Shown one piece after another: positions 87 through 18,309 of a stretch of DNA of 38,529 nt. Each line of letters starts with the position of its first letter. The first letter of the stretch is position 1. The position numbers and the translations under genes were made by a program. The DNA lies in IMG/VR virus record IMGVR_UViG_3300025141_016741, positions 1-38,529 of that record, one strand, 5' to 3'. The stretch comes from a virus. The notes under the pieces were generated by a model. It was not told the origin of the DNA. It worked only from the letters and a program-made list of their open reading frames with translations, and searched no databases.

Positions 87-808
87 TGAGTAATAGATTC
101 GTATTTATTATGCCCGCATACAATGCGGAAGAAACTATTTCTAGAGCAATAATGTCTGTATGGTTTCAGACTTACCCAAACTGGAAAATAATAATCAGAG
201 ATGATATGTCATCTGATAGAACTCTTGAGATGATCTCTTCTATGAAAGATCAATTAGGATTAGGCCCAGATAGACTATCTTTTACATCAAATACTGAAAA
301 GATGTGGGAAATAAGAAATATTGTCGAAGCTCTAAAAGAGTGCGAGTCGAACGATATTGTTTGTCGTCTAGACGGAGATGATTGGTTGTGTGACACAGAT
401 GCACTTTCTATCATAAATCATAGATATGAATCTCTAAAGGTCGATGCGCTATGGACAGCTCACAGATGGTCTTTTTCTAATCATAATATTTCCGGACCTC
501 TTCCAAAAGATGCAAACCCATACGAACACCCATGGGTAAGCTCACATCTAAAAACTTTTCGCAAAAAAATGATTGAGAACGTAAAAGATGAAAACTTTAG
601 AGGAGAAGATGGAGAGTACTTCAAAAGAATTGGTGATCAAACAATATACTTGCCTGTTTTGCATCAAGCAAAAGGAAACTGGCATTACGAACCCATAGTT
701 ACTTATCATTACACAATAGACATGAACCCTAGCACATTTCAGACGAATGATGCTCTGTTTCAAAAAAGTGAAGGAGAGTATTTGCGATCCCGTGGGTACA
801 TAGAATGA
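86..808 (+). CDS. Family 2 (GT-A) glycosyltransferase
   Basis: This 240-residue protein is predicted to transfer a sugar from a nucleotide-sugar donor, in the cytoplasm or at the inner membrane face. The N-terminus has the GT2 pattern: a beta strand followed by PAYNAEETISRAI (residues 10-22), then IIIRDDMSSDRT (35-46), matching the nucleotide-binding strand and its acidic residues. RLDGDDW (94-100) fits the DXD metal/donor site. There is no transmembrane segment, and the length equals one catalytic domain. The GTG start overlaps the upstream TAG as TAGTG, and the stop overlaps the next ATG as ATGA, so translation is probably coupled. Acceptor and donor cannot be read from sequence. Confidence 0.85.
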   Translation: MSNRFVFIMPAYNAEETISRAIMSVWFQTYPNWKIIIRDDMSSDRTLEMISSMKDQLGLGPDRLSFTSNTEKMWEIRNIVEALKECESNDIVCRLDGDDWLCDTDALSIINHRYESLKVDALWTAHRWSFSNHNISGPLPKDANPYEHPWVSSHLKTFRKKMIENVKDENFRGEDGEYFKRIGDQTIYLPVLHQAKGNWHYEPIVTYHYTIDMNPSTFQTNDALFQKSEGEYLRSRGYIE

Positions 809-1554
809 AAAAAAACAATTGCTTTGAGAAATATAAAAATTTTCATTTTGGAGAGTCAGTTTTCGTCATCGGAACAGGCCCTACACTAGTTGATTTTTTC
901 CCGCAATCTGATCAATATGAGAATATTGTCAAAATTGGATGCAATGCTTTAGTCTACTCAGATGATGTTGAATTAGATTACTATTTTATTGGTGATCCGC
1001 AAACTAAAGCAAGAAAAAAATCTTTTATTAGCGATCCGCAACCCTACAGAGATTATAAGCCAAAAATTGAAAAATTTTGTCGTCTCAGTGAAAGCAAACC
1101 CCATTGTCTTACAACTGTAAACGGTGGGCCTTTACAGCATGCTAAACATTACTCTAGTGCTAGATACTCAAAATATATAGAGGGATATTACCCTCTCGAT
1201 ATTGTTACTGAGCCCATCAATCCTATAGGCTCAATTTCAATGGACATGATGCAATTTGCACTTTTTGCAGGTTTTAAGACTATATTTTTGTTAGGGCAAG
1301 ATTGCAACTATAATCAAAAAACTGCTGCTGGTGCAAAGGCTCATTTCAATGAAGATGCTCTGAAACATTACGAAACTGTTGCTACAAGAGTGGTTCGATA
1401 TTGGGAAAAAATGGCAAAATTTATTGAGAATGAACACAAAGATGTCCAAATATTTTCTGTCAATCCGATTTCCTTGAAATTTTTCAATGAAATTTCATAT
1501 GATAAGATTACAGAAACTAATGAATCAAGAAGAAGATACTTTGGTCTCTGTTAA
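805..1554 (+). CDS. DUF115 / MptE-like (Maf-type) protein
   Basis: A 249-residue protein of the DUF115 (6-hydroxymethylpterin diphosphokinase MptE-like) type. The sequence shows the Rossmann-like glycine turn FVIGTGPTL (20-28) and, near 162-170, FLLGQDCNY, the hydrophobic-then-GxDC pattern typical of these proteins. In bacteria, DUF115 proteins are common in surface-glycan clusters and include the Maf motility accessory factors linked to sialic/pseudaminic-type sugar transfer. A role as a glycosyltransferase-like protein for an ulosonic acid would fit the CMP-sugar enzymes just downstream, but that is inference from context. It overlaps the preceding GT gene by 4 bases. Confidence 0.65.
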   Translation: MKKNNCFEKYKNFHFGESVFVIGTGPTLVDFFPQSDQYENIVKIGCNALVYSDDVELDYYFIGDPQTKARKKSFISDPQPYRDYKPKIEKFCRLSESKPHCLTTVNGGPLQHAKHYSSARYSKYIEGYYPLDIVTEPINPIGSISMDMMQFALFAGFKTIFLLGQDCNYNQKTAAGAKAHFNEDALKHYETVATRVVRYWEKMAKFIENEHKDVQIFSVNPISLKFFNEISYDKITETNESRRRYFGLC

Positions 1555-1563
1555 GAAAAATTT

Positions 1564-2394
1564 ATGAAAAAAAATAAAAAAATTCTAGGAACATGGCAGG
1601 GAAAGCGATATGATTATTCCGATTTTGAAAAAATGACCATGAAATATCTAGTTGAAAAACTAGATTTATTGAATAAATCATTTAATGTTGTAGGAATTAA
1701 ACAGTCATTTGAAGATGAGGGGGCTCTTTTATCTGATGTTCTAACAATGAGGAGAATAACAGAGCTGTGCAATCTAGAAATGTATGTAAAAATTGGGGGA
1801 TGTGAAGCTATTACAGACATTAATAATTGTGCAACAATGGGCATTAATAATATTATTGCCCCCATGGTGGAAACACCCTATTCATTTCAAAAATTTATCA
1901 ATGCTGTCAAAAATATTACCCATACCCACTATTATTTTCTTTGTGAAACCAAAACAGCTTACAACAACATAGATGAAATTTTTAAAACTTCCGAAGCTTC
2001 AAAGCTTTCGGGTGTAATAGTGGGAAGATCCGATTTTGCTAAATCTTATAATCTAGATAAGGCCAGGGTAAACGAAGATTTTTTGGGAAAAAAAGTAAAA
2101 GATATTTTTGAAAAAAGCAAAGAAAGAGGATTGATAACTACCATGGGTGGAAATATCTCTGTAGATTCTGTAGAATTTATTCAATCCCTTTATGAGAAAG
2201 GCTTGCTTGATAAAGTAGAAACAAGAAATATTGTAGTGGAGCTAAATGATAATAATATAAAAGATTTAAAAAGCACAATTGAGGCAGTCATTATGTATGA
2301 AATTGAGTGGCTTCGTTTCAAGGCAATAAATTATACTAATATTGGAGAATCTTATCTTCGCAGAGTATCTATTTTAGAAAATAGAATCAAATGA
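1564..2394 (+). CDS. HpcH/HpaI-family aldolase-like enzyme
   Basis: A 276-residue TIM-barrel protein resembling the HpcH/HpaI aldolase/citrate lyase family, which cleaves or forms C-C bonds between pyruvate (or acetyl-CoA) and an aldehyde using a divalent metal. CETKTAYNNIDEI (127-139) matches the family strand carrying the metal-binding Glu (E128). VIVGRSDFAKSY (151-162) matches the strand carrying the metal-binding Asp (D157). KIGGCEAITDI and APMVETPYSF are further barrel strands of the family type. It lies immediately before an Fe-S protein, a HAD phosphatase and a CMP-sugar synthetase. I therefore infer that it makes a keto-deoxy sugar acid rather than acting in catabolism. This stretch is notably A/T-rich. 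Substrate unproven. Confidence 0.7.
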   Translation: MKKNKKILGTWQGKRYDYSDFEKMTMKYLVEKLDLLNKSFNVVGIKQSFEDEGALLSDVLTMRRITELCNLEMYVKIGGCEAITDINNCATMGINNIIAPMVETPYSFQKFINAVKNITHTHYYFLCETKTAYNNIDEIFKTSEASKLSGVIVGRSDFAKSYNLDKARVNEDFLGKKVKDIFEKSKERGLITTMGGNISVDSVEFIQSLYEKGLLDKVETRNIVVELNDNNIKDLKSTIEAVIMYEIEWLRFKAINYTNIGESYLRRVSILENRIK

Positions 2395-3557
2395 ATAATA
2401 GATTTAAAACACTTCAGAGATTGCTTCACGAAGAAAAATGTTTTAAAATGATTTGCGGCGCCGGCAATGAAGATAAAAAGTACGTAAAAAAACTTGCGCT
2501 AATTTACACATTGGCAGGTGCAAAGGTTCTAGACGTGTCAGCCAATGTAGAAGTAGTCAAATATGCTGCCCAAGGTATTGATTATGCATTTGATATTGCT
2601 AAAAAATTAGGTGTAAAATTAATTACAAGACCATTTATAATGGCAAGCATTGGCATGCCCGGGGATCATCATGTGAGAAAATCTTATATTGACCCTAATA
2701 CTTGTGTGGGGTGTAATTTGTGTATACCGGTTTGCCCAACAGATGCTATTCCTGAAAATTTTACTAATTTTTTGGATCACTTTAAATCACTGGGTGGTTC
2801 ATATGAGAAAAAAGATCAAGAAAAAGAAATTGTGATTAAGGACTTGTGCATTGGCTGCGGAAAATGTAGCAACATCTGTCCCAAAGATGAAATTATATCT
2901 TATAGACATAATGAAAAAGAGTTGCGAAATTTACTTCCAAAGTGCTTAGAAGCCGGCGCTGAATCCTTTGAATTGCATGCTGCCGTGGGTGAAGATGAAG
3001 TAACACTAAAAGAATGGAAAACAATTACAGATATTAATTCTACCAATTTTAATTCTATGTGCCTGGATCGACTAAATTTGGGAAATCTAAACTTAGAGCA
3101 TAGAATACAATTGGCAAAAAAAATCTCCGGAGAAAAATTAATAATCCAGGCAGACGGCTATCCAATGAGTGGTGGCGAAAATGACTTTAATACTACACTA
3201 CAGGCAATTGCCTGTGCAGATGTTATTAATAAAAAATTCAATATGAGGATAAATAAAAAATCAGCAGGCGGAGTTGTGGGTAAAGCTAAGTTATCATCTA
3301 AGCAATCTTATAGAAACCATGGTCATCATTTGGGTATTTATATTGTGCTCTCTGGCGGAACGAATAAACTATCTAAGGAGCTAGCTAACATGTGTAATGT
3401 TAGAGTTAATGGCGTAGCAGTAGGAACATATGCCCGTGATATTGTGGAAAAATATGTTCAAAATAAAAATTTCTACAATAATATTGATATCATTAAAAAA
3501 GCATATAAAGATGCATCTAAATTAGTTTATGCAAATATTGGGAGCATTCATGAATAA
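2391..3557 (+). CDS. LdpA-like protein with two 4Fe-4S cluster motifs
   Basis: A 388-residue protein with two ferredoxin-type motifs, C105-x2-C108-x2-C111-x3-C115 and C153-x2-C156-x2-C159-x3-C163, each followed by Pro, so it should bind two 4Fe-4S clusters. Flanking parts look like an alpha/beta barrel: KVLDVSANVEVVKYAAQGID near residues 45-64, IVLSGGTNK and GVAVGTYARDIVEKYV towards the C-terminus. This arrangement resembles LdpA, a cyanobacterial redox-active iron-sulfur protein, and LdpA-like proteins of polysaccharide loci. It overlaps the aldolase gene by 4 bases, and its C-terminus overlaps the following HAD gene, so it belongs to that module. Its reaction is unknown; electron transfer to, or radical/redox help for, the sugar-acid pathway is possible. 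Confidence 0.65.
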   Translation: MNNRFKTLQRLLHEEKCFKMICGAGNEDKKYVKKLALIYTLAGAKVLDVSANVEVVKYAAQGIDYAFDIAKKLGVKLITRPFIMASIGMPGDHHVRKSYIDPNTCVGCNLCIPVCPTDAIPENFTNFLDHFKSLGGSYEKKDQEKEIVIKDLCIGCGKCSNICPKDEIISYRHNEKELRNLLPKCLEAGAESFELHAAVGEDEVTLKEWKTITDINSTNFNSMCLDRLNLGNLNLEHRIQLAKKISGEKLIIQADGYPMSGGENDFNTTLQAIACADVINKKFNMRINKKSAGGVVGKAKLSSKQSYRNHGHHLGIYIVLSGGTNKLSKELANMCNVRVNGVAVGTYARDIVEKYVQNKNFYNNIDIIKKAYKDASKLVYANIGSIHE

Positions 3558-3930
3558 AAAATTAATAATAGCAGTTGATTTTGATGGAACGCTATGTGAA
3601 TATTCATTTCCAAAAATTGGAGAACAAACAGAAAGTCATGAAAAATTAATGAAAATTCTCATTCAAATGCAGAATGATGGACACAAATTGATACTGTGGA
3701 CAAATAGAGGAGATAATGAAAAATACCCTGTTTTAACCGAAGCAGTAGAATGGTGTGCTAACAAAGGATTAAAATTTGATGCTATTAACGAGAACTTGCC
3801 CGGGCAGATAAAAATATCCGGATTTAGCCCTAAAATTATGGCTGATTTTTATATTGATGATAAAGCCCTTGAATTTAATAATGATCTTTCTATGAGAAGT
3901 ACATTACAATTTTTAAAAGGTTTAGAGTAA
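3550..3930 (+). CDS. Small HAD-family phosphatase-like protein
   Basis: A 126-residue haloacid dehalogenase-type hydrolase. VDFDGTL carries the nucleophile pair D10 and D12, ILWTNRG is motif II, and FYIDDKAL holds the late acidic motif that binds Mg. There is essentially no cap domain, as in small KdsC-like or BT0820-like phosphatases. I chose the ATG at 3550 because GGGAG stands at the right distance upstream and the protein then begins directly with the catalytic strand; an ATG at 3529 would only add seven residues. It overlaps the Fe-S gene. Sitting next to a CMP-sugar synthetase, it plausibly dephosphorylates a sugar-acid phosphate before activation, as in KDO and sialic acid routes (inference). 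Confidence 0.75.
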   Translation: MNKKLIIAVDFDGTLCEYSFPKIGEQTESHEKLMKILIQMQNDGHKLILWTNRGDNEKYPVLTEAVEWCANKGLKFDAINENLPGQIKISGFSPKIMADFYIDDKALEFNNDLSMRSTLQFLKGLE

Positions 3931-3938
3931 GAGAAAAA

Positions 3939-4613
3939 ATGCTTAAAGCGCTAATACCGGTAAGATCAGGCTCTGTAAGAGTAAAAAATAAAAACATTAG
4001 ACCATTTGCAAACTCTACATTATTAGAAATAAAAATTAGACAACTTCTTAGAATTGATAAAATTGATGAGGTTTGCGTAAGTTCAGATTCTGATGAAATG
4101 TTGAAAATGGCAAAATCTCTGGGCGCAACTCCAGTACGCCGTGATGCAAAATATGCTTCTAGCGATTCATTGATTAATGATGTTTGGGCACACATGTCAC
4201 AAAATATTGTTTGTGAACATGTGCTCTACACAAATGTCACAAACCCATTGGTGCGAGACGAAACATATGACAAGTGCATAAAACAATATTTTGAAAGCAT
4301 AGACGATTATGATTCGCTTAACACAGTATCAATTATTAAAGAATTTTTGTGGCTTGGGGAAAAACCCATCAATTATGATTGGAAAAAACAACCCAGATCT
4401 CAAGACTTACCTGATGTTTTTTATCCTAATTTTGCTATTAATATTCTTAAAAGAGCAACAATGGAAAATCAGCGAAGTGTAATTGGTAAAAAATTTTACC
4501 CTTATGCGCTAGACAAAATAGAATCTATAGACATTGATGATGAAGAAGATTTTTTAATAGCTGACCTTCTTTACCATCACTTGAAAAGAAAAATAACGGA
4601 ACATAAGAAATGA
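3939..4613 (+). CDS. CMP-sugar synthetase (acylneuraminate cytidylyltransferase family)
   Basis: A 224-residue cytidylyltransferase of the NeuA/KdsB type, predicted to couple CTP with a ulosonic acid to give a CMP-sugar. The N-terminal LIPVRSGSVRVKNKNI (residues 5-20) is the CTP-binding loop in the variant RSGSxRxKxKN, followed by the usual strand/helix VCVSSDSDEML and the DxxYASSDS-like stretch KYASSDSLINDV. The length matches single-domain CMP-NeuAc synthetases. It lies between two HAD genes and downstream of an aldolase, the usual company of such enzymes. The substrate could be a sialic-like, legionaminic-like or other keto-deoxy acid; no NeuB-type synthase is visible, so classical sialic acid is not supported. 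Confidence 0.8.
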   Translation: MLKALIPVRSGSVRVKNKNIRPFANSTLLEIKIRQLLRIDKIDEVCVSSDSDEMLKMAKSLGATPVRRDAKYASSDSLINDVWAHMSQNIVCEHVLYTNVTNPLVRDETYDKCIKQYFESIDDYDSLNTVSIIKEFLWLGEKPINYDWKKQPRSQDLPDVFYPNFAINILKRATMENQRSVIGKKFYPYALDKIESIDIDDEEDFLIADLLYHHLKRKITEHKK

Positions 4614-4638
4614 AAGACTCACCTTTGAGAAGCACAAA

Positions 4639-5109
4639 ATGAATAAAGTAGAAAGCAAGCTAATGGATCCGACTAATTTATTTGCTAATGCCCCAGAAAA
4701 GACAAAAAAAGAAAAATCACAAGAAATTAGAGAGCATTCTTTTCCTGATGAAACAGAGCAGATCGGAATAGACTTTGACGGTGTTGTGCACAGAAACTCA
4801 AAAGGATTTTTTGATGGAACAGTATACGATGATCCGGTAGACGATATTGAGTCGCTTCTAAAAGAGCTCAGCAGCAAATATAAACTAGTTCTTTTTTCTG
4901 TCAAGGCAAGAAAAGATAGAATGCTGATAAATGGAAAAACAGGCACTGAATTGATTCATGATTGGCTTGTTGAGAAAAACTTAAGGCACTATTTTGTTGA
5001 GATAACTTCAGAAAAACCGAGAGCTGTTTGCTACATAGACGATAAAGCAGTTTATTTCAAAGCTGTAGATACATGCATAGTTCAGCTAAAAGAAAGAGGA
5101 ATACTATGA
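4639..5109 (+). CDS. Second HAD-family phosphatase-like protein
   Basis: A 156-residue HAD-type protein with a 40-residue charged N-terminal extension before GIDFDGVVH (catalytic D45 and D47). LVLFSVKAR fits motif II, and CYIDDKAVYF is the C-terminal acidic motif, nearly the same as YIDDKAL in the HAD gene about 1.1 kb upstream. Otherwise the two proteins differ clearly, so this is an old paralogue or an independent member rather than a recent duplication. The stop overlaps the next gene's ATG (ATGA). It probably acts on a phosphorylated sugar intermediate of this cluster; why two such enzymes flank one cytidylyltransferase is not clear. Confidence 0.7.
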   Translation: MNKVESKLMDPTNLFANAPEKTKKEKSQEIREHSFPDETEQIGIDFDGVVHRNSKGFFDGTVYDDPVDDIESLLKELSSKYKLVLFSVKARKDRMLINGKTGTELIHDWLVEKNLRHYFVEITSEKPRAVCYIDDKAVYFKAVDTCIVQLKERGIL

Positions 5110-6014
5110 AAAAAATGTATGTCAATCGAGCACCGGTCGAAGGTCCATGGGGTGGAGGAAACAATTTCGTAAAAGCACTATATCAGTATGGTAAAGACTA
5201 TGATTTTGATGTTTCAAACAGGCTTGATGAAAATACTGATGTTGTATTTATGATAGACCCAAGACCAGATCAAACTGGATTTTCTATCAAGGAGATTTCT
5301 GCTTTTAAGGAATATAAGCCGTCATCAAAACTAGTCTATCGAATAAACGAATGTGATGCTAGGAAGGGTGAAGTCAATAAGATAGACCCACTAATTTCTT
5401 ATGCTAGCAATTTTGTAGATCTTTCTGTTTTTATTTCTGGCTGGATAAAAGACTATCATACAAAAGAAGATTGGCACTGCAATAACAACGAAGTGATATT
5501 CTCAGGTACAAATAAAGATCATTTTATTCCGGGTGAAAAAATCAACAATGGAAAAATAAACTTGGTGACACATCACTGGTCAGACAATCCATACAAAGGG
5601 CAAGATATCTATGAGCTTTTAGACTCTTGGGTAGCCACTAATAAAGACTTTGCTTTTACATACATTGGAAGGACGAAAGCTAGCTTTGAAAACACATGTG
5701 TTTTACCGCCAACTTTTGGCAAAGACTTGGGAGAAAAACTAAGTAAGTATGATGTGTATGTTTCAGCCTCAAGGCATGACCCAGGACCCAATCACATTAT
5801 TGAAAGCTTAGCATGCGAAATTCCAACTTATGCTCACTCTGCCTCCGGGGGAGCTGTTGAAATGGTAGGTGACTCTCATGTTTATGATTCTTTTGAAGCT
5901 TTAGAAAAGATACTTTTGCAAAAAAAATTCCCAAAAAACGAAGGCTTGTTGGTCCCTAATGACTGGCAAAAATGTATGAAAGAGTATTTCGAGTCTATTT
6001 GGAAAGTTTTATGA
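5106..6014 (+). CDS. GT-B glycosyltransferase (family 4-like)
   Basis: A 302-residue glycosyltransferase with a short N-terminal acceptor domain. The opening residues KKMYVNRAPVEGPWGGGNNF form the usual first strand and glycine loop. The C-terminal donor domain shows YVSASRHDPGPNHIIESLAC, where D-x7-E replaces the classic E-x7-E of family 4, followed by a glycine-containing loop (SASGGAVEMVG). The start at 5106 overlaps the upstream stop by ATGA; an in-frame ATG at 5073 would add eleven residues within the previous gene and is less likely. It is shorter than typical GT4 enzymes (about 350-400), a feature shared with three neighbouring GTs here. Linkage and donor unknown. Confidence 0.75.
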   Translation: MKKMYVNRAPVEGPWGGGNNFVKALYQYGKDYDFDVSNRLDENTDVVFMIDPRPDQTGFSIKEISAFKEYKPSSKLVYRINECDARKGEVNKIDPLISYASNFVDLSVFISGWIKDYHTKEDWHCNNNEVIFSGTNKDHFIPGEKINNGKINLVTHHWSDNPYKGQDIYELLDSWVATNKDFAFTYIGRTKASFENTCVLPPTFGKDLGEKLSKYDVYVSASRHDPGPNHIIESLACEIPTYAHSASGGAVEMVGDSHVYDSFEALEKILLQKKFPKNEGLLVPNDWQKCMKEYFESIWKVL

Positions 6015-6862
6015 AATGGGGCCTGATTGGTTTTGGAAGATGGGGAAAGATACTGTCATATGCCATCAGCAAAAACTATCATCTGAAGGCTGTGTCTTCT
6101 CGCAATGTAGACAGAGTAAGAAGTGACATAAAAGAAAAAAGCTTGGGTTATAAAGCCATGTCAAGCGAGCAGATATTTGAAGATTCTGAAATAGAAGTTG
6201 TTGCTGTAACAGTTCCAATTGAAAGTTTATTTTTTTATGCAAAAGAGTCTATTGAGAAAGGCAAGCACGTCTTTTTAGAAAAACCTGGCCCGAAGTCAAA
6301 AGAACAGTTAGTGATACTAAAAGATGCTGCCAAAAGAAACAATGTGGTATGCTATACAAATTACATTTATTCTGAAGACTTAGCTTTAAAATTTTTAGTA
6401 GAAAAAATAGCTTCGTCATCTATAAAAAGCATTTTCATTAGCTGGGACAAATGGGGAACTTTCAATAACGATATTATCGATAATTTAGTAACACATCAGC
6501 TGTCTGTTCTTTTGAGAATAATCAAAAAACCTCTCAGCTTGATCGATGTTCAAATTGAAAAAAATAAATTTTTTGCAAGCTATGAGACAAAAAATACTAG
6601 AATATCTTTAGAGATTAATCGTATTTCTAAAATGAACAAAGGCATGCAAATGAAAATAATAACAGAAGACAGCATTTATAACTGGTCTCCTGGAAAAGTC
6701 ACATGTATGAAGAAAAATATCTTTACAGATGAAAGTGATATGCTAGTCAATCAAACAAAAAGAATGAATAGCATGGTTGAAAGTATGAGCTTAGATTCTA
6801 ATTTTAGTCTTGTCGAAAAAGTGAATAACCTAGTCTTAAACATAAGAAGTTTTTCAAAATGA
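6011..6862 (+). CDS. Gfo/Idh/MocA-family oxidoreductase
   Basis: A 283-residue NAD(P)-dependent sugar dehydrogenase-like protein. KWGLIGFGRWGKIL is the Rossmann glycine loop at the N-terminus, VVAVTVPIESLFFYAKESIE is the family's third nucleotide-binding strand, and HVFLEKPGPKS contains the family EKP motif. The usual C-terminal alpha/beta substrate domain follows, a little shorter than average (family about 320-350). The start at 6011 gives an ATGA overlap with the GT stop. An earlier in-frame ATG at 5972 would only add sequence out of character with the fold. It likely oxidises or reduces a nucleotide-sugar or a free sugar derivative for the cluster. Confidence 0.75.
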   Translation: MKWGLIGFGRWGKILSYAISKNYHLKAVSSRNVDRVRSDIKEKSLGYKAMSSEQIFEDSEIEVVAVTVPIESLFFYAKESIEKGKHVFLEKPGPKSKEQLVILKDAAKRNNVVCYTNYIYSEDLALKFLVEKIASSSIKSIFISWDKWGTFNNDIIDNLVTHQLSVLLRIIKKPLSLIDVQIEKNKFFASYETKNTRISLEINRISKMNKGMQMKIITEDSIYNWSPGKVTCMKKNIFTDESDMLVNQTKRMNSMVESMSLDSNFSLVEKVNNLVLNIRSFSK

Positions 6863-7914
6863 AGATAGCAGTTGTCGGAGCTGGAATATTTGGGGTAACA
6901 TTTGCGCTTAAATTATCTAAAGAGTACGATGTTACTTTATATGAAAAGAGCTCTGATATTATGACAGCAGCTAGCAGAGCAAACCAGCTTCGCCTCCACC
7001 GAGGATATCATTATCCTAGAAGTCCGGATACTGTAAGAGATCTTCTAGGGTCAATTGACTTTTTTGAAAAAGAATACAAAGATGCAGTTGTAGGGTGCCA
7101 CGAACATTTTTATTGCATTGCAAAGAATGATAGCATGACATCGCCAAAACAGTATTTAGACTTTTGTAATGAATTTGACTTGGAGTATCAGGTTGTTGAC
7201 AACTTTCCGCATGTTTGTCATGACAAAATTGGGTTGACAGTCAAAGTAAAGGAAAAACTTCTAGACTATTACAAAATATACAATATATGTTGGGAAAGAT
7301 TACTAGCCTCCAGCATAAAAAGAAGATTTCTAAAAAAGTTCTCAAAAGACGATATTGATCATTTTGATATAATCATTAATTGCACGTATGCAGACATCAA
7401 TAATCTCTTAGATGCAAAAAGCCAAAGGGAATATCAGTTTGAAGTCTGTGAAAAAATTTTAGTAAAAATGCCTAGTGAAATGGTCAACAAAAGCATCGTT
7501 GTGATGGACGGCCCGTTTATGTGCGTGGATCCATATGGCAAAACAGGCTTGTCTCTTTTAGGAAACGTCGTCCACGCAATACATGCTACAAATACAGGAA
7601 TTGCACCCAAGATACCCACCCTAATACAAAAAGATTTAAATGCTGGCGTGGTTAAAAATCCTACTATTACTAATTGGAAAAAATTTATACAAACAGGAAG
7701 AGAATATATCCCAAGTCTTGATAGTGCTGAGTATCGAGGATCGATGTTTACTACTCGGGCTGTACTGCCAAATATGGATAAAACAGACGGCCGTCCTACC
7801 ATTGTCTCCAAGCCATATTCTAAAATAATAAATGTGTTTTCCGGAAAAATAGACACATGTGTGATGGCAGCGCAAGACACCTTGGGGATACTTTCCAGGC
7901 TTGAAGGATACTGA
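6859..7914 (+). CDS. FAD-dependent oxidoreductase (DAO superfamily)
   Basis: A 351-residue flavoprotein. KIAVVGAGIFGVTFALKL is the N-terminal GxGxxG dinucleotide loop, followed by an acidic strand end (VTLYEKS). ANQLRLHRGYHYPRS near residues 42-57 is the Arg/His-rich stretch typical of DAO-type enzymes that binds flavin and substrate. The C-terminal part ends with a DTCVMAAQDTLGI stretch. The family oxidises amines, amino acids or related substrates with FAD. It overlaps both neighbours by a few bases, directly after a Gfo/Idh enzyme and before glycosyltransferases. Oxidation of an amino-sugar or hydroxyl of the building block is plausible but unproven. Confidence 0.7.
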   Translation: MKIAVVGAGIFGVTFALKLSKEYDVTLYEKSSDIMTAASRANQLRLHRGYHYPRSPDTVRDLLGSIDFFEKEYKDAVVGCHEHFYCIAKNDSMTSPKQYLDFCNEFDLEYQVVDNFPHVCHDKIGLTVKVKEKLLDYYKIYNICWERLLASSIKRRFLKKFSKDDIDHFDIIINCTYADINNLLDAKSQREYQFEVCEKILVKMPSEMVNKSIVVMDGPFMCVDPYGKTGLSLLGNVVHAIHATNTGIAPKIPTLIQKDLNAGVVKNPTITNWKKFIQTGREYIPSLDSAEYRGSMFTTRAVLPNMDKTDGRPTIVSKPYSKIINVFSGKIDTCVMAAQDTLGILSRLEGY

Positions 7915-8831
7915 TGAGAATACACTTTTCAAATGTTAACTTTTCTTCTAATACAGGCCCAAACTCTTTCGGATCTAGGCTTGCACAGGAGTTAACAATA
8001 CAGGGTCACGATATTGTAGAGGCAGACAAACCTTATGATGCTTTCTTAATCTTTATAGAGCCATCCTCTAATCCTTATCCTGGTGCCAGAGTGGTTCAAA
8101 GGTTAGATGGTATTTGGTTCAAACCAGAAGAGTTTCATACCCACAACAAAATGATTAAGTGGGCTTATGATAATAGCGATTTTGTAGTTTGGCAAACAGA
8201 ATTTGACAAGAAAATGACGACCAAGCACTGGGGTGAAAGAAAGGGTAAAGTGATTCATAACGGCATAGATCTAAATGAGTATGCTGTAACAGATAAAAGT
8301 CTTCACGAAATCAGGCGTGATTATGATAAGGTTTTTGTTTGCTCTTCAAACTGGCATAGACAAAAAAGACTCAAAGAAAATACAGAGTTATTTTTTGAAA
8401 TTAAGAAAAAACACCCAAATGCTTGTTTGATAGTAATGGGAAACTCCCCTGATTTTACTGTAGAGCACAAAGATGTTTTCTATACAGGCGCAATCCCTCA
8501 TGATTTGTGTTTAGAAGTTTTTGCTATGGCAGACTGGATGATACATTTGGCGTGGCTAGATCATTGCCCAAATGTAGTGGTTGAATCAATATCACAAAAA
8601 TGTCCCGTTATATGCTCTAGCTCTGGTGGGACACAAGAAATAGTAAAAGGGAACGGTCTAGTCTTACCAGAGAATAAAATTTATAATTTTGAGCTTCTAG
8701 ACTATGATAAACCATACGAGTTATCTGTAGTACCTCTGGAGCTTCCTAACATTCAAGTTGATAATTCCTACCTGGATATCAAACAAGTAGCACAGAAGTA
8801 CATCAGAGTTTTGGAGAAGACAACACCATGA
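7914..8831 (+). CDS. GT-B glycosyltransferase (family 4-like)
   Basis: A 305-residue glycosyltransferase. The opening MRIHFSNVNFSSNTGPNSF has the first strand and the serine/glycine loop of GT-B enzymes. VIHNGIDLNEY is the family 4 linker sequence between the two domains. FVCSSNWHRQKRLKEN starts the donor domain with a K/R set that binds phosphate, and LDHCPNVVVESISQKCPVI is the D-x7-E donor site, followed by SSSGGTQEIV. The start ATG overlaps the upstream TGA as TGATG, and the end overlaps the next start as ATGA. The order FAD enzyme, GT, GT suggests consecutive sugar additions to one glycan. Confidence 0.8.
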   Translation: MRIHFSNVNFSSNTGPNSFGSRLAQELTIQGHDIVEADKPYDAFLIFIEPSSNPYPGARVVQRLDGIWFKPEEFHTHNKMIKWAYDNSDFVVWQTEFDKKMTTKHWGERKGKVIHNGIDLNEYAVTDKSLHEIRRDYDKVFVCSSNWHRQKRLKENTELFFEIKKKHPNACLIVMGNSPDFTVEHKDVFYTGAIPHDLCLEVFAMADWMIHLAWLDHCPNVVVESISQKCPVICSSSGGTQEIVKGNGLVLPENKIYNFELLDYDKPYELSVVPLELPNIQVDNSYLDIKQVAQKYIRVLEKTTP

Positions 8832-9769
8832 GTATTTTTATATTAGCACCAAATGAAAACTGGATTTGTGATAGATTCGTTGAAGAATGGAAAAACACTA
8901 ACCCATTGTCAACAACAGAAAATATCTATGAGTCTTCTATAGTATGGCTTTTAGCTGACTGGTGTTGGAATCAAGTTCCGGAAGAAGTTTTATCCACAAA
9001 AAAAGTTGTAGTCTCTGTTCATCACATTACGCCTGATAAGTTTGGAGATGTTGAAAAAGATGACTTCGAAAACAGAGACAAATATGTGGATCTTTATCAT
9101 GTTCCATGCGAAAAAACAAAAGAACAAATAACACCCTATACAAAAAAACCTATATGGGTGCAACCCTTTTGGGTAAATGATAAACTGTGGTTTGAAACAA
9201 GCAAAGAAGAAAAGACTGAGCTTAGAAAAAAGATGGGCTTAGATGATTCACATATTCTAATAGGATCTTTTCAGAGAGACACAGAAGGCCATGATCTAAT
9301 CAGTCCAAAATTAGAAAAAGGACCTGATTTATTTTGTGATGCTGTTGAAGAACTCAGCAAACATTATCAGGAGCAAGGAAAAGAAGTAAGAGTTTTTTTA
9401 GCAGGTTGGAGACGTCAATATGTTATGAAAAGATTGGATGAAGCTAACATAAAATACTATTATGCAGAGCTACCACCATTTGAATTAGTCAACAAGTTAT
9501 ACAATGCTTTAGACTTGTACATTGTTGCTGCTCGTTATGAAGGCGGGCCGCAAGCTATTGTTGAGTGTGCGCTAACAAAAACACCAATCGTTTCAACAGA
9601 CGTTGGTTTATCAAGTGATTTCCTTCCTCCTCATTCTTTGTTCGAGCCAGGTAGAATTTTAGATGTCAAGCCAGACGTTGATTATGCTTATGATAAAGTA
9701 CAAGAAATAGTAATGCCTGTAGGTTTTATCCCGTTTGTTAAAGCTTTTAAAGACCTAGGAGTAGAATAG
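8828..9769 (+). CDS. GT-B glycosyltransferase (family 4-like)
   Basis: A 313-residue glycosyltransferase. The clearest feature is the donor-site E-x7-E in ARYEGGPQAIVECALTKTP near residues 236-254, followed by VSTDVGLSSDF. VSVHHITPDKFGD in the N-terminal half is the family strand with a His pair, as found in GT4 relatives, and ILIGSFQRDTEG is the first strand of the donor domain. There is no membrane segment. It is tightly linked to the previous GT (4-base overlap) and ends in TAGTG, where the cupin gene begins. Donor and acceptor not determined. Confidence 0.8.
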   Translation: MSIFILAPNENWICDRFVEEWKNTNPLSTTENIYESSIVWLLADWCWNQVPEEVLSTKKVVVSVHHITPDKFGDVEKDDFENRDKYVDLYHVPCEKTKEQITPYTKKPIWVQPFWVNDKLWFETSKEEKTELRKKMGLDDSHILIGSFQRDTEGHDLISPKLEKGPDLFCDAVEELSKHYQEQGKEVRVFLAGWRRQYVMKRLDEANIKYYYAELPPFELVNKLYNALDLYIVAARYEGGPQAIVECALTKTPIVSTDVGLSSDFLPPHSLFEPGRILDVKPDVDYAYDKVQEIVMPVGFIPFVKAFKDLGVE

Positions 9770-10149
9770 TGAGCAGTGAAAACAAAGAAAATAGTGCAGC
9801 AGAACCCATAAAGTTTGTTCCAAAAGGTTGGGGATTCGAGAAGTGGATTGTAAACTGTGAAGAATACTGTGGAAAACTTCTATACTTCGCAAAAGGAAAG
9901 CGGTGCTCATGGCACCATCATAAACTGAAAGATGAAGTCTTCTTCATACAGTCAGGAAAAATCCTGGTAAAGTTCTCTGACTATGATGACATTGATCTCG
10001 CAGAAGAAAAGATTCTGTCCAAGGGCGACAAGTTTCATGTATACAGAGGACTCAGGCATCAAATGATAGCTCTAGAAGATACTGAGCTTTTTGAGTTTTC
10101 GACGCAGCACTTTGACAGTGATAGTCATCGAATCATAAAAGGGGATTAA
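9769..10149 (+). CDS. Cupin protein (mannose-6-phosphate isomerase/dTDP-sugar epimerase-like fold)
   Basis: A 126-residue single-domain cupin. GKRCSWHHHKLKDEVFFIQSG is the first cupin motif: a His triplet, then a Glu, then the glycine turn. FHVYRGLRHQMIALED is the second, with its own His. These residues would bind one metal ion. Small cupins in nucleotide-sugar clusters act as epimerases or isomerases, or as regulators of them, but this one lacks the size and residues of RmlC. The GTG start shares a G with the upstream TAG; a helix-free N-terminal tail of about 15 residues precedes the fold. Confidence 0.75.
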   Translation: MSSENKENSAAEPIKFVPKGWGFEKWIVNCEEYCGKLLYFAKGKRCSWHHHKLKDEVFFIQSGKILVKFSDYDDIDLAEEKILSKGDKFHVYRGLRHQMIALEDTELFEFSTQHFDSDSHRIIKGD

Positions 10150-10159
10150 AACAAAAGTT

Positions 10160-11146
10160 ATGCACAATTCAGATGCAAGAATTATCAAAAGAATAAAAGC
10201 AGTTCTAGATGTTAAAGGTAAAGCTTATAAAGAACAATTAGAAAAGTCAAAAGAAGACTTTTATGAATACTGTATGCCTGGGTCTGTTAATAATTGGCAG
10301 CATCCGCAAAAACCTCCGACACAAGCATCTTTAGCTTTAGTCGCAAACGAAATAAATCCTGAAAGAATTTTAGACTTTGGCACAGGTTTGACTGCTTATA
10401 CTTTTCTCAAACATACAAAGTCAAGTGTGCTATCTATTGATAATTCTTTTGTTTGGCTTCTTCGTTTAAGAACATGGCTAAAAAACAAAAACTTGAGCAC
10501 AAGTGGACTGACTTTTTTCGAATCAGCTGATCAAGGACATGTCTATAATTTAGAAAATGACATTCATCCGGCCACGAAAAGCGTAGGGATGTCAGGATTT
10601 TTATATCACACACCTCTAAACCTCGACAAAGAGACATTTTCATGGGATTCTATGATTTACGAAGAGCCGTCACATATTCAATCGATTACAAACTGGAAAA
10701 GTGTTTATTCTGATAGTCAATGGGCAGAAATGCCAGAAAGAGAAAAGCTAGACCAGTGCAGAACTGCCAGGTTTTTAGGGTATGTTAGAGATAATGGTGT
10801 GTATTGCTTAGACGCTTCTGGATATGATAGCAAGTCAATTTCCGAAATAGGAAAATTTTCATTTATTCAGTTTGATTTTGGGCATATGTGGTCTAGGTTG
10901 GCATATCTTCAGTGTGCTATTTCTATGCTAGATCGAAGCAAACCTTCTGTTATAAACATTGATGATTTGCACAAAAAAGACGTATTTTTTGATAACAAAA
11001 CGTATCTAGACATGGCAACAGATGCCATTTCTTCTGCAGGAGGAGTTTGGTTGCATTGTGAAGATGCGACGACTGACTTTCAAGGCGGATATTCAGACTT
11101 TGCATATTTCCCCTCTAGAAGAAAAGAAAAAAAAGGAACAGAATGA
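10160..11146 (+). CDS. SAM-dependent methyltransferase-like protein
   Basis: A 328-residue protein. RILDFGTGLTAYTFLK around residues 74-89 matches motif I of class I methyltransferases (strand plus DFGTG glycine loop), and VLSIDNSFVWLLRLRTWL is the expected next strand with an acidic end and helix. Later strands GVYCLDASGY and SVINIDDLHK fit strands of the fold. About 60 residues precede the domain. The sequence lacks a clean, well-known substrate motif, so methyl transfer to sugar is a context-based guess. It follows the cupin after 10 bases and overlaps the SDR gene by ATGA. Confidence 0.55.
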   Translation: MHNSDARIIKRIKAVLDVKGKAYKEQLEKSKEDFYEYCMPGSVNNWQHPQKPPTQASLALVANEINPERILDFGTGLTAYTFLKHTKSSVLSIDNSFVWLLRLRTWLKNKNLSTSGLTFFESADQGHVYNLENDIHPATKSVGMSGFLYHTPLNLDKETFSWDSMIYEEPSHIQSITNWKSVYSDSQWAEMPEREKLDQCRTARFLGYVRDNGVYCLDASGYDSKSISEIGKFSFIQFDFGHMWSRLAYLQCAISMLDRSKPSVINIDDLHKKDVFFDNKTYLDMATDAISSAGGVWLHCEDATTDFQGGYSDFAYFPSRRKEKKGTE

Positions 11147-12207
11147 AAGTAATTGTAACAGGCGCTGGTGGGCTAATAGGAAGTCAGGCTAGTAATCATT
11201 ATTTGTCTCATGGGCATGAAGTCTACGGTGTAGAAAATAATATGCGTAGCTTGTTTTTTGGGAAAAAGGGCGACGTAACTAAGACACTTCAAAGTGTAAG
11301 CTCTCATTCAAATTTTACTCACATAGATGTTGATATTAGAGATAGAGGTGCAATAGAAAGTGCTATTTCCAGAACTAAACCAGATGTCATTATACATACA
11401 GCTGCCCAGCCTTCACATGACAAGGCTGCAGATATACCCTACTTAGACTTTGAAACTAATGCCGTAGGAACTTTAAATTTACTAGAATCAACCAGACAAC
11501 ACGCGCCTGGTTGTGTTTTTATCCACGTTAGCACTAATAAGGTTTATGGAGATGCCCCTAACAATCTTCCAATAGTGGAAAAAGATACACGATATGACTT
11601 TGACGAAAGGCTTATTGCAAACTATACCGGCGCATCATACTCAGGAATTAGCGAAAAGTTTTCAATTGATAATTCAATGCACTCTTTGTTCGGGGCATCA
11701 AAACTGGCAGCTGATGTTTTAGCTCAAGAGTACGGCAAGTATTTTGAAATGAACGTAGGCATCTTTAGAGGGGGATGTTTAACCGGCCCACAGCATGCAG
11801 GTGTAGAGCTTCACGGCTTCCTTTCTTATATCGTTCAGTGTGCTCTCCGCGGCAATCATTACAATATTTTTGGCTACAAAGGAAAACAAGTTAGAGATCA
11901 AATTCACTGCTCAGATGTGATTTCTTGTTTTGATAGGTTTGTGGAAGATCCGAAAATGGGTGAAGTTTACAATCTTGGCGGCGGCAGAGAAAATGCAGCA
12001 TCAGTCTTAGAAGTTGTCGACATGATAGAAGATATATCAGGTAAAAGATTGAATTTTACGCTAACAGATACTGCTAGAAAAGGAGATCATATTTGCTATA
12101 TGACAGATATGAGAAAATACTCTGAGCACTACACAGGTTGGGAAAAAACTTATTCTTTAAAAGATATAATTGAGGAAATGGTAGATAGGGAGGAAAAAAA
12201 TGTCTGA
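11143..12207 (+). CDS. NAD-dependent SDR epimerase, CDP-paratose 2-epimerase-like
   Basis: A 354-residue extended short-chain dehydrogenase. VIVTGAGGLIGSQASNHYL is the TGxxGxxG NAD loop, and VFIHVSTNKVYGDAPNN holds the active-site Ser/Thr strand. HSLFGASKLAADVLAQEYG is the catalytic segment, with Phe where most family members have Tyr; the same HS-x-FGASK form is, as I recall, usual in this CDP-paratose/tyvelose-epimerase-like group. FRGGCLTGPQHAGVELHGF and YKGKQVRDQIH are further hallmarks of the group. Such enzymes epimerise CDP-paratose to CDP-tyvelose, but the group is broader and no CDP-hexose synthesis genes are visible here. It overlaps neighbours on both sides. Confidence 0.75.
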   Translation: MKVIVTGAGGLIGSQASNHYLSHGHEVYGVENNMRSLFFGKKGDVTKTLQSVSSHSNFTHIDVDIRDRGAIESAISRTKPDVIIHTAAQPSHDKAADIPYLDFETNAVGTLNLLESTRQHAPGCVFIHVSTNKVYGDAPNNLPIVEKDTRYDFDERLIANYTGASYSGISEKFSIDNSMHSLFGASKLAADVLAQEYGKYFEMNVGIFRGGCLTGPQHAGVELHGFLSYIVQCALRGNHYNIFGYKGKQVRDQIHCSDVISCFDRFVEDPKMGEVYNLGGGRENAASVLEVVDMIEDISGKRLNFTLTDTARKGDHICYMTDMRKYSEHYTGWEKTYSLKDIIEEMVDREEKNV

Positions 12208-13171
12208 GTATCCGCTGATAACGTTTGGGTTTGTCAATTGCAACCGGCTTTTTTATTTAAAGAGCTGTGTCGAAAGTCTGCTAATATGCACTGAAGATTA
12301 TCCAAATAGAGAATTTATTGTAGTAGACAATCACAGTCTAGAAGAGGGAACAGATGAATATCTTAGTGATCTCGAAGAAAGAGGCTTCAAGATCATTAAA
12401 AAGACAAAAAGAGACCCAAAAAATGAATTTGCAATAGGGCTCAATGATATCGTTAGAGAAGCAAAAGGCGAATTTGTTTTTCCTTTGCAGGGGGACATGC
12501 AGTTTATTCTAAAAGGCAGCTGGCTAAAAGAATATGTTGATCTTTACCGAAAGTATCCTGAAAATATAGGATGCATAACGCTAGACGCACAGAGGGGCGT
12601 TACGCTAGCCGGATCGCAACTAGGAATTGTTGAGTCTGATTCAAAAATGAATTTTTTTGTTGATTACGGCCGGCCGCCAACATGCGGAGCGGGTGATGTA
12701 ATGTATTCCAGAAAAACTCTAGAGAAAATGGGTCCGTGGAATGAAAAAAATCATCAACACGAGTATGAAGGGGACAGTGAAACAAACATGCTCAATAGAG
12801 TAAAAGAGATTCAGCTAAAAGCAGAAATAAACTGGTTCCAGATAATGCCGTCATTTCCAGTTGCAGTAGCAACCTACACAGATGACAGAGGGACTAATGC
12901 AAGAATAAGAGGAAGCAATAGATACGGAGACTATTGGGAAGCTAAAGAAAACAATTTGTACTACAGCCTAGTTGATTTTATCAAAGTAGACGTTGAGTCA
13001 CTTACCCCTTATAGCATAGAAACAGTAGCCAAGCCAATTGGCTGGAAAGCCCCAATTGATCATAATGGAGTTTGGAGGAAAAATCCCATAAGACCAGAGA
13101 CAGCATCGAAAGATGAGTACACTGTTCTCCCTTATAAAGATAGCGATTTTGTGGGTGAAAATGAGAGTTGA
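12200..13171 (+). CDS. Family 2 (GT-A) glycosyltransferase
   Basis: A 323-residue GT2 enzyme. ITFGFVNCNRLFYLKSCVES is the first strand and helix, and FIVVDNHSLEEGTDEYL is the next strand with its acidic residue. FVFPLQGDMQFIL carries the DXD-like site in the form GDM, so the metal-binding pair differs from the canonical form. GAGDVMYSRKTLEKMGPWNE is the acceptor-side segment, and the GDSETNM segment carries the likely catalytic acidic residues. The start is supported by a strong GGGAGG ribosome-binding site inside the end of the previous gene (8-base overlap). The C-terminal 70 residues are extra compared with minimal GT2 domains. Confidence 0.75.
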   Translation: MSEYPLITFGFVNCNRLFYLKSCVESLLICTEDYPNREFIVVDNHSLEEGTDEYLSDLEERGFKIIKKTKRDPKNEFAIGLNDIVREAKGEFVFPLQGDMQFILKGSWLKEYVDLYRKYPENIGCITLDAQRGVTLAGSQLGIVESDSKMNFFVDYGRPPTCGAGDVMYSRKTLEKMGPWNEKNHQHEYEGDSETNMLNRVKEIQLKAEINWFQIMPSFPVAVATYTDDRGTNARIRGSNRYGDYWEAKENNLYYSLVDFIKVDVESLTPYSIETVAKPIGWKAPIDHNGVWRKNPIRPETASKDEYTVLPYKDSDFVGENES

Positions 13172-13206
13172 TTTTATTATTATTTCTCTAGCATAGAAGG
13201 AAAAAA

Positions 13207-14148
13207 GTGAAGATAACAGTAGTAGGATGCGGCAATATGGGAACTAATCACGCAAGAATTTTGCGTGACTTAGATTCTTTAGAGGCAATTGTGGAACAAA
13301 GCCCAACTCGAAGAAAACGTCTTCATGAGCTGGGCTACGGAAAATTTTTAAGAAGCAGTATAGAAGAGACTGAAAGTCATGGGTATGTAATTGCAACACC
13401 ATCAGCTTCCCATCGAAAGATATTAGAAAAAACTCTTCAAAAAACTAATTTTATTCTTTTGGAAAAGCCAGCGCTTCTTAACGAAAAAGAATATAAAAGT
13501 ATCCTTGAAAATTTTGACACATCTAAAATATGCGTCGGTCATATTGAAAGATTTAATCCTGCTGTTGAAAAAGCAAAAGAAGACTTTTCTAGCAGTATTT
13601 CGAGGTGTGAGTTCTTTAGATACTCTTCTAGGCCTAAGCAAATTAAAGACGTAGGTGTCTGGAAAGATTTGGGCGTCCACGATGTAGACCTTATGATTCA
13701 TTTTATGGGAATTCCAGAATCTGTAGCTTGTCATGCTGTAATGGACAACAATATAGACATATCTTTTCATGCAAATTTTGGATTTAGCGACGGAAAAAGT
13801 GCAGCTGTAAATGTAAGCTGGCTGTCTACAGCCAAAAGAAGAGAAGTTCAAATATACGGCTTAGACGGAGAAGCAAATGTAGATTTGCTTAAGCAGAAGA
13901 TCTCATTCCTCTCAGAGCACCAGCAAAGTTCTAAGCCGGACAATCACTTTTCTCCTACAGTCTCACAGTCTAAAATGATTTATGACATGGCAAGAGCTGA
14001 ACCTCTTCGTAGAGAGATTGAGCATTTCTTGAGAGTCGTCAAAGGAGAAGAAAAGCCGCTGATTTCTTTAGAACATGCACAGCTAGTAGAGAGCATAATC
14101 TCTAAATCTTATCAATCGTTTCGTCTAGGGAAAAGAATTGAAATATGA
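13207..14148 (+). CDS. Gfo/Idh/MocA dehydrogenase, GnnA-like
   Basis: A 313-residue oxidoreductase. ITVVGCGNMGTNHARIL is the glycine loop, FILLEKPALL is the EKP motif, and VGHIERFNPAVEKAKE is the catalytic-region signature seen in UDP-N-acetylglucosamine 3-dehydrogenase (GnnA)-type members, which oxidise C3 of UDP-GlcNAc before transamination. SWLSTAKRREVQIYG is the later strand of the C-terminal domain. The start is GTG at 13207, with GAAGG about 6 bases upstream. A 35-base gap precedes it, one of the larger in this block. With the DegT gene and the formyltransferase downstream, an amino-sugar route is inferred. Confidence 0.7.
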   Translation: MKITVVGCGNMGTNHARILRDLDSLEAIVEQSPTRRKRLHELGYGKFLRSSIEETESHGYVIATPSASHRKILEKTLQKTNFILLEKPALLNEKEYKSILENFDTSKICVGHIERFNPAVEKAKEDFSSSISRCEFFRYSSRPKQIKDVGVWKDLGVHDVDLMIHFMGIPESVACHAVMDNNIDISFHANFGFSDGKSAAVNVSWLSTAKRREVQIYGLDGEANVDLLKQKISFLSEHQQSSKPDNHFSPTVSQSKMIYDMARAEPLRREIEHFLRVVKGEEKPLISLEHAQLVESIISKSYQSFRLGKRIEI

Positions 14149-15224
14149 GAGTGCTTTTGACAGCAGCTGGAAGTCCGGGCTTTTTGACTTTATATAAGTC
14201 TTTTTCTTCCTACGAAAAAAATATAGATATTTTTGGGTGTGACTGCAATCCTAATTCATTTGGCTTAGCAGTGCTAAAAAATGGATTTTGTGTACCGACA
14301 GCATCGTCTACGAACTATATAGAAGAAATTGTTAGACTTTGCAAAGAAAACAAAATCGAAGTTCTAATACCTTGTTCTGATGAAGAAGTCCAAGTCATTG
14401 GCGAAAACATTGAGATATTCATTAGGGAAGATATTAGAGTTTTATCTAATACAGAAAGGCTGACAGATATTTTTAACAAGGAAAAATTTCTTCTCTCCGT
14501 AAGAAAAACTTTTCCTGAAATAGTTCCTGATTTTTTGGCAATTAGATCCTCTAAGGAATTTGAAGATGCATATTGTAAGCTTTCTAAGAAGCATAGCGTT
14601 TTATGTGTAAAGCCAGCCATGGCACATGGCAGTAGAGGGTTTCGAATTATTAGAGAATCTAATCTAAAAGATTTTTTCTCTAGCAAGCCAAATGCTAGAG
14701 AAATTTCTTATGAAGCGTTGCTTTATCTGCTGAGTCAAGAAGAAGAATTTCCAACATTGCTTCTAATGGAATACATGTCAGAAGACGAGTATAGCATCGA
14801 TTGTATAGACCTGAATAAAAGATTTGTTGCTGTGAGTCGAAGAAGAGATGTGATAAAAGATGGAATATGCTCAGCAGGTGAAGCAATTGAGAAAAGCGAT
14901 CTTCTTCATTACTGCAAAGAGCTCTATGATCACTTTAAAATAAAATATCATGCCAATTTTCAGTTTAGATATGACAAGAATAATCAAGCTAAAATTGTTG
15001 AACTAAACCCTAGATTTTCTGGTACAATGGAGCTTTGTCGAGGAGCAGGAGTCGATTTTGCATCTTTATCGATGAATAAGCTTTTAGAAATACCAGAAAA
15101 AGATTTGCCTCAAATACGCTGGGGTACAAAAATGCAAAGAGTTTGGCAAGAAGTATTTTTCCAAGGTGAAAAAACTTTTGTTTTAGAAAGTATAGGTAAA
15201 AATCTAGAGGAAATGAATGTCTAA
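14145..15224 (+). CDS. ATP-grasp ligase-like protein (carbamoyl-phosphate-synthase-type)
   Basis: A 359-residue protein of the ATP-grasp superfamily, which joins a carboxylate to an amine or other nucleophile with ATP. The N-terminal part is a Rossmann-like pre-ATP-grasp domain (MRVLLTAAGSPGFLTLYKSF). The ATP-grasp domain includes VLCVKPAMAHGSRGFRII with the Lys and glycine-rich lid, LLLMEYMSEDEYSIDCI, and VELNPRFSGTMELCRGAG with the Glu/Asn metal ligands. These features resemble carbamoyl-phosphate synthase-like ligases found in polysaccharide loci. Attaching an amino acid or acyl group to an amino sugar would fit the neighbours. It overlaps both the Gfo/Idh gene (ATGA) and the deacetylase gene (8 bases). 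Confidence 0.7.
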   Translation: MRVLLTAAGSPGFLTLYKSFSSYEKNIDIFGCDCNPNSFGLAVLKNGFCVPTASSTNYIEEIVRLCKENKIEVLIPCSDEEVQVIGENIEIFIREDIRVLSNTERLTDIFNKEKFLLSVRKTFPEIVPDFLAIRSSKEFEDAYCKLSKKHSVLCVKPAMAHGSRGFRIIRESNLKDFFSSKPNAREISYEALLYLLSQEEEFPTLLLMEYMSEDEYSIDCIDLNKRFVAVSRRRDVIKDGICSAGEAIEKSDLLHYCKELYDHFKIKYHANFQFRYDKNNQAKIVELNPRFSGTMELCRGAGVDFASLSMNKLLEIPEKDLPQIRWGTKMQRVWQEVFFQGEKTFVLESIGKNLEEMNV

Positions 15225-15831: not shown

Positions 15832-15842
15832 AGGGAATAATA

Positions 15843-16535: not shown

Positions 16536-16537
16536 AT

Positions 16538-18297: not shown

Positions 18298-18309
18298 AAA
18301 AGGGTAAAA

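Follow-up and report, generated by a model that had tools for sequence, protein, structure and literature searches.

How might a phage make an activated acidic sugar without a recognizable sugar-acid synthase? The question is raised by the start of IMG/VR virus record IMGVR_UViG_3300025141_016741, a viral contig of 38,529 bases that was analysed at its full length (hereafter, the window) and is possibly a fragment. An initial annotation had assigned to positions 1564–5109 a candidate pathway to a cytidine monophosphate (CMP)-activated keto-deoxy sugar acid, in which an HpcH/HpaI-type aldolase would take the place of a NeuB- or KdsA-type synthase. Six open reading frames (ORFs), all on the + strand, make up the locus: a DUF115/MptE-like (Maf-type) gene (805..1554; PF01973, PHROG 4603); ALD, encoding a divergent HpcH/HpaI-like TIM-barrel enzyme of 276 residues (1564..2394; PF03328 and predicted fold); LDPA, encoding an LdpA-like protein of 388 residues with two [4Fe-4S] ferredoxin motifs in a TIM-barrel-like fold (2391..3557); HAD1, a small HAD phosphatase (3529..3930, with a likely start at 3550; NF046079 and HAD motifs); CMPT, a NeuA/PseF-type cytidylyltransferase (3939..4613; PF02348); and HAD2, a second HAD phosphatase (4639..5109; PHROG 1238). 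As annotated, the ORFs overlap or are separated by 8–25 nt (the start of LDPA overlaps the end of ALD by 4 nt), and the aldolase, both HAD proteins, the cytidylyltransferase and the DUF115 gene are all present on the same strand; the aldolase and the first HAD gene are not in direct sequence, however, as LDPA, which had not been listed, lies between them.

A cassette for a CMP-activated ulosonic-type sugar is the best reading of this block, and a likely one. As we model it, ALD, a metal-dependent member of the pyruvate/phosphoenolpyruvate-lyase superfamily, would form an acidic keto sugar or set its carbon skeleton, provided that its reaction runs in the direction of synthesis, and its product would most likely be phosphorylated. 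LDPA, as an electron-transferring Fe-S/TIM-barrel enzyme, may carry out an optional redox modification of the sugar; the phosphate would be taken off by HAD1 or HAD2; CMPT would activate the free acid with cytidine triphosphate (CTP); and the CMP-sugar would probably be passed to a presumed acceptor by the product of the DUF115/Maf-like neighbour. CMPT probably does act on an ulosonic-type acid. That ALD performs a step of the same pathway in the manner described is a proposal that we rate at slightly below an even chance, and we hold the complete stepwise scheme of a sugar-donor cassette just as tentatively.

The first three of the genes from ALD onwards form a real unit, far beyond chance. 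Profile-alignment searches recovered ALD at 36 viral loci and LDPA at 23, several of these loci being views of one contig, and homologous blocks occur on approximately 20 other viral contigs and on three cellular contigs (two from Pelagibacteraceae and one from a Chloroflexi metagenome-assembled genome (MAG)). Among 22 viral LDPA loci, an HAD gene lies directly downstream in 21; ALD is the immediate upstream neighbour in 18, and in 20 it lies no more than 2.2 kb upstream. At a limit of 90% identity, 34 of 35 aligned ALD sequences stay distinct, and the recurrence is, therefore, not that of one clone. One could suppose that these sugar genes share no more than a glycosylation island and belong to no common pathway: the island has many other glycan genes and such islands reshuffle. 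Nevertheless, the retention of the ALD-LDPA-HAD1 order across wide sequence divergence, at the adjacency frequencies given above, and a fusion of ALD to HAD2 (described below) both speak against this explanation, which is disfavoured by the recurrence and seems to us very improbable. Neither the ALD family nor LDPA was found among 50,697 annotated phage records, so the ALD family has gone unnoticed in reference phages, and our literature searches found no description of this gene cluster.

The link between ALD and a cytidylyltransferase also recurs. PF02348 is present in 17 of 31 ALD-bearing records, and the two genes are combined in at least seven arrangements: ALD-LDPA-HAD1-CMPT (the window and the type represented by locus L029), ALD-CMPT-HAD2 (L030, L031), CMPT-ALD-HAD (L035, L036), CTP_transf-ALD-HAD2 (L038), an ALD::HAD2 fusion preceding an epimerase and CMPT (L039, L040), HAD-ALD-epimerase-CMPT (L143) and ALD-LDPA-HAD1-HpcH-KdsB (phages L008 and L061, and the Chloroflexi MAG, L009). 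The fusion is an identical 377-residue protein in L039 and L040, which come from two samples. Moreover, the close phages L029 and L030, whose flanking proteins are 86–95% identical, differ between a shared ALD and a shared MptE-like gene, where one has LDPA-HAD1-CMPT and the other has a different CMPT followed by HAD2. This swap suggests that LDPA is optional and that HAD1 and HAD2 are interchangeable, with ALD and the MptE-like gene being part of both versions. In a further locus (L002:8825-9503), an ALD that is 65% identical to that of the window is followed by an LDPA remnant, in which approximately the first 50 residues match before the sequence diverges, and then by a HAD2 gene; no CTP_transf_3 was found in the L002 record. 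To judge from its sequence, this locus may reflect decay or replacement of LDPA.

The annotation of CMPT as a CMP-sugar synthetase is borne out. The protein is of the NeuA type and scores 72.2 bits against PF02348 (CTP_transf_3; cut-off 22.6), its closest solved chains are CMP-N-acetylneuraminate (CMP-NeuNAc) synthetases, and the nucleotide-binding IPVRxGS motif, the PxxQDL motif and the DxD-type (metal-binding acidic) residues are conserved in nine homologues. A survey of this cytidylyltransferase, in which 80 phage loci were kept of 89 matches, identified as regular partners HAD2-type phosphatases, a pair comprising a cupin and a short-chain dehydrogenase (SDR), and a SIS-type isomerase-like protein, the last being named by its GmhA-like GNGGN motif and having no Pfam match. 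HAD2-type proteins account for 52 homologous ORFs in the 80 loci, and are the phosphatases that usually accompany this cytidylyltransferase. Candidate transferases linked to CMPT include a DUF115-like family (c20) at 10 phage loci, of which the window DUF115-like protein is a relative, and an MptE-like family (c13), whose member adjoining CMPT in L028 scores 47.5 bits against PF01973; L104 has a GT29 sialyltransferase-like protein in this role. Additionally, at L085:4983-10630 and approximately 10 similar phage loci, a canonical HpcH gene lies immediately 5′ of a fused SIS::HAD2 gene, and the pair is located ~3.4 kb downstream of cupin-SDR-CMPT; the arrangement resembles another aldolase-based route to an acid activated with CMP, possibly a cleaner one.

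With the 3-deoxy-D-manno-octulosonate (KDO; KdsD-KdsA-KdsC-KdsB) and sialic/pseudaminic acid (NeuB/PseI, NeuA/PseF) pathways, the cassette shares an HAD-type phosphatase, CMP activation by a CTP_transf_3 enzyme and sialyltransferase/Maf-like neighbours, but it has divergent aldolase-like and LdpA-like Fe-S proteins, and neither NeuB nor a KdsA-type synthase was found in the 38.5-kb window record, which may be a fragment. Similarly, NeuB was not found in 25 of 31 ALD records, nor was a synthase of the KdsA/3-deoxy-D-arabino-heptulosonate 7-phosphate (DAHP) type in 28 of the 31. As proof that ALD replaces these enzymes, we rejected this absence. The control set comprised 45 phage records that carry the CMPT type, drawn from loci lacking the LDPA unit. 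NeuB was not found in 44, a KdsA/DAHP-type match over the cut-off was not found in 44, and ALD was missing from 44 (the exception being L143); absence is thus the rule, it does not single out ALD as a replacement, and the host may supply the acid. It follows that CMPT needs no phage-borne acid source, which lends weight to an alternative in which two modules stand side by side: HAD2, CMPT and the transferase would use a host-made ulosonic acid or its phosphate (of the Kdo or sialic type), and ALD, LDPA and HAD1 would make a different building block. The many ALD-LDPA-HAD1 units that carry a thiamine-diphosphate enzyme and no cytidylyltransferase also accord with such a division; the ALD::HAD2 fusion close to CMPT, several independent adjacencies of ALD and CMPT without LDPA, and the retention of ALD beside a CMPT in the L029/L030 swap do not, and we consider it the less probable arrangement. 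The positive evidence for ALD in the pathway comes from the fusion, the swap and the recurring placement of ALD beside a cytidylyltransferase. The route originally proposed is partly supported by the recurrent grouping of ALD, HAD and cytidylyltransferase genes without NeuB or KdsA, and by the fusion, but it draws nothing from the missing synthase, which is equally common without ALD. The most novel version of the single-cassette reading is a synthase-free phage route to CMP-activated ulosonic acids, in which NeuB/KdsA give way to a new metal/lysine TIM-barrel family with a mechanism unlike that of HpaI, and the sugar is tailored in a redox step by an LdpA-like Fe-S enzyme; it is in our estimation somewhat unlikely.

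Is ALD then an HpcH/HpaI aldolase? Its score against PF03328 (HpcH/HpaI) is 28.9 bits, a weak match but over the curated cut-off of 25. An AlphaFold2 model with a predicted local distance difference test (pLDDT) score of 90 has HpcH/HpaI class II aldolases as its top PDB folds in Foldseek (template modelling (TM) score ~0.55), followed by SbnG, RipC and pyruvate kinase; a search of BFVD gave nothing close. When residues were mapped by profile alignment to canonical HpcH copies from the same loci, Glu128 and Asp157, which the initial annotation had numbered correctly, aligned with the metal ligands Glu146 and Asp172 of HpcH, and both are invariant in 44 ALD homologues from phages and bacteria. 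The other invariant residues are Lys46, Glu50, Glu52, Lys76, Gly78, Gly79, Glu81, Pro100, Glu103, Gly154, Arg155, Ser161, Gly195, Glu219 and Arg221. Many of the invariant residues sit at or just past the strand ends, according to the strand boundaries of the predicted model; barrel active-site residues are typically located at strand ends. The basic set Lys46, Lys76, Arg155 and Arg221 would suit a phosphorylated substrate. Thus, ALD shares the fold and the Glu/Asp metal ligands of the class II pyruvate aldolases (HpaI, GarL, YfaU and SwHKA), but it differs from them in its additional invariant residues (Lys46, Glu50, Glu52, Glu81, Glu103, Arg155, Glu219 and Arg221) and at two active-site positions considered below.

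Several observations weigh against the single-cassette reading. First, the position of the pyruvate-binding Arg70 of HpaI is occupied by Lys76 in all 44 ALDs, and that of the catalytic His45 by Asp, Ala, Ser or Thr at 51, or by Glu52, and never by His; ordinary pyruvate chemistry cannot, therefore, be assumed for ALD, and although the fold, the metal ligands and the family score agree with the earlier assignment, a standard HpcH/HpaI pyruvate aldolase as the maker of the acid is not supported. Secondly, CMPT scores 80.1 bits against PseF (TIGR03584) and does not reach the equivalog cut-off of 205.7; by this comparison, it is related to PseF, but is not PseF. Thirdly, the suggestion that the DUF115 gene encodes the transferase, which is favoured by the c20 homologues beside the CMPT type and by a match to PHROG 4603 (alpha-2,3-sialyltransferase; E = 4.3e-5), is tempered by a score of 27.1 bits against PF01973, under the cut-off of 34.6. 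Fourthly, ALD often has a thiamine-diphosphate enzyme, and no cytidylyltransferase, as its neighbour, indicating that its product is not always CMP-activated. In many phages, ALD-LDPA-HAD1 is found with an acetolactate-synthase-like enzyme of this type (which adjoins the unit at L003:4764-6554 and many related loci) and an epimerase, and often with a short canonical HpcH. A 2-keto acid is a natural substrate both of this cytidylyltransferase class and of decarboxylating thiamine enzymes, and so a 2-keto sugar acid as the product of ALD and its partners would unite the two settings; this is one reading that we infer.

The remaining contrary observations come from the KdsB clusters and from bacteria. 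In the ALD-LDPA-HAD1-HpcH-KdsB clusters, ALD is accompanied by a canonical HpcH with an intact active site (Asp40, Glu42, His43, Arg68, Glu146 and Asp172 are kept), and the KdsB of L061 passes the curated cut-offs; this HpcH could be the enzyme that does the pyruvate step. Extended to the window, the argument would have a canonical HpcH/HpaI enzyme, provided by the host or by an unseen part of the phage genome, make the keto-deoxy acid, with ALD supplying or processing a precursor, such as an aldehyde. The three KdsB clusters (two from phages, one from the Chloroflexi MAG), and the canonical HpcH adjoining the SIS::HAD2 fusion ~3.4 kb from CMPT in the cupin-SDR-CMPT phages, are in keeping with such a division of labour, but the window record holds no second PF03328 gene, and none was seen near ALD-CMPT in L023, L025 and L028-L031, these records being fragments; we judge it improbable. 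In bacteria, an ALD homologue on the Ilyobacter polytropus plasmid pILYOP01 (L083:10001-10774), with the key residues kept except for G53, is surrounded by genes for an aconitase, a 2-hydroxyacid dehydrogenase, PrpF and a 2-hydroxycarboxylate transporter, suggesting a possible catabolic lyase role there. The block itself is present on the three cellular contigs. Across the phylum of a Pelagibacteraceae host genome, 8 of 399 genomes carry ALD, mostly near genes for a thiamine-diphosphate enzyme, DegT and epimerases, at loci without LDPA; within its order, LDPA was found in 2 of 297 genomes.

What might LDPA contribute to the favoured cassette? It matches PF25160 and PF12617 (the LdpA Fe-S and C-terminal domains) over their cut-offs, as well as Fer4 domains, and has two CxxCxxCxxxCP clusters whose eight Cys residues are all invariant in 24 sequences. 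The predicted model, of moderate confidence, would place the Fe-S part as an insert in a barrel; fold searches gave weak, mixed TIM-barrel matches (class II fructose-bisphosphate aldolase and RuBisCO, TM scores 0.4–0.5) that fix no function, and comparison by sequence with solved structures returned generic ferredoxin-type domains only. LdpA is a cyanobacterial circadian redox sensor (PMC13421787, PMC6378743). With it, LDPA shares both LdpA domains and the two [4Fe-4S] motifs, but its score against the clock protein model (NF045992), 143 bits, is far under the equivalog cut-off of 450, on which ground we rejected its identification as circadian LdpA; moreover, its gene is part of a sugar operon, chiefly phage-borne, with aldolase and phosphatase genes as neighbours. 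A ferredoxin-reductase-like gene after HAD1 in L003 fits an electron-transfer role for LDPA. HAD1 resembles the BT0820-family phosphatases in sequence and motifs (its nearest solved chain is 2obb, and the DFDGT, T, K and DD motifs are all found), but at 89.6 bits it scores under the NF046079 family cut-off of 165.

The cassette lies in a long sugar-gene island (~1–23.5 kb), within which the record starts, and the record ends with baseplate and tail genes. Positions 5073-20135 (+ strand, before the tail genes) encode further glycosyltransferases, two GFO/IDH/MocA oxidoreductases, a flavin adenine dinucleotide-dependent oxidoreductase, a cupin, an ATP-grasp protein, a formyltransferase, DegT, a uridine diphosphate-sugar dehydrogenase and epimerases; a PD-(D/E)XK nuclease gene (20156-21022) separates this stretch from two more glycosyltransferase genes. 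An anti-phage defence role for the block was rejected, as PADLOC gave no match. The baseplate protein at 27946 is 32% identical to that of Microcystis phage Mel-JY01 and 29% to those of Flavobacterium phages, so there is no close reference phage in the collection compared. Elsewhere, at L008:1924-3651, a PhoH-like gene is split by a LAGLIDADG/homing-endonuclease-type insert, which is probably an intein.

To our knowledge, LdpA has been described solely as a redox sensor of the clock. If the synthase-free route were correct, LdpA would come from a family of sugar-pathway enzymes, the LdpA-like Fe-S proteins would have their first enzymatic context, and ALD-LDPA-HAD would be a defined three-gene unit. 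Acidic surface sugars often control phage adsorption and host recognition; by this route, phages would make them with a non-canonical chemistry of their own.

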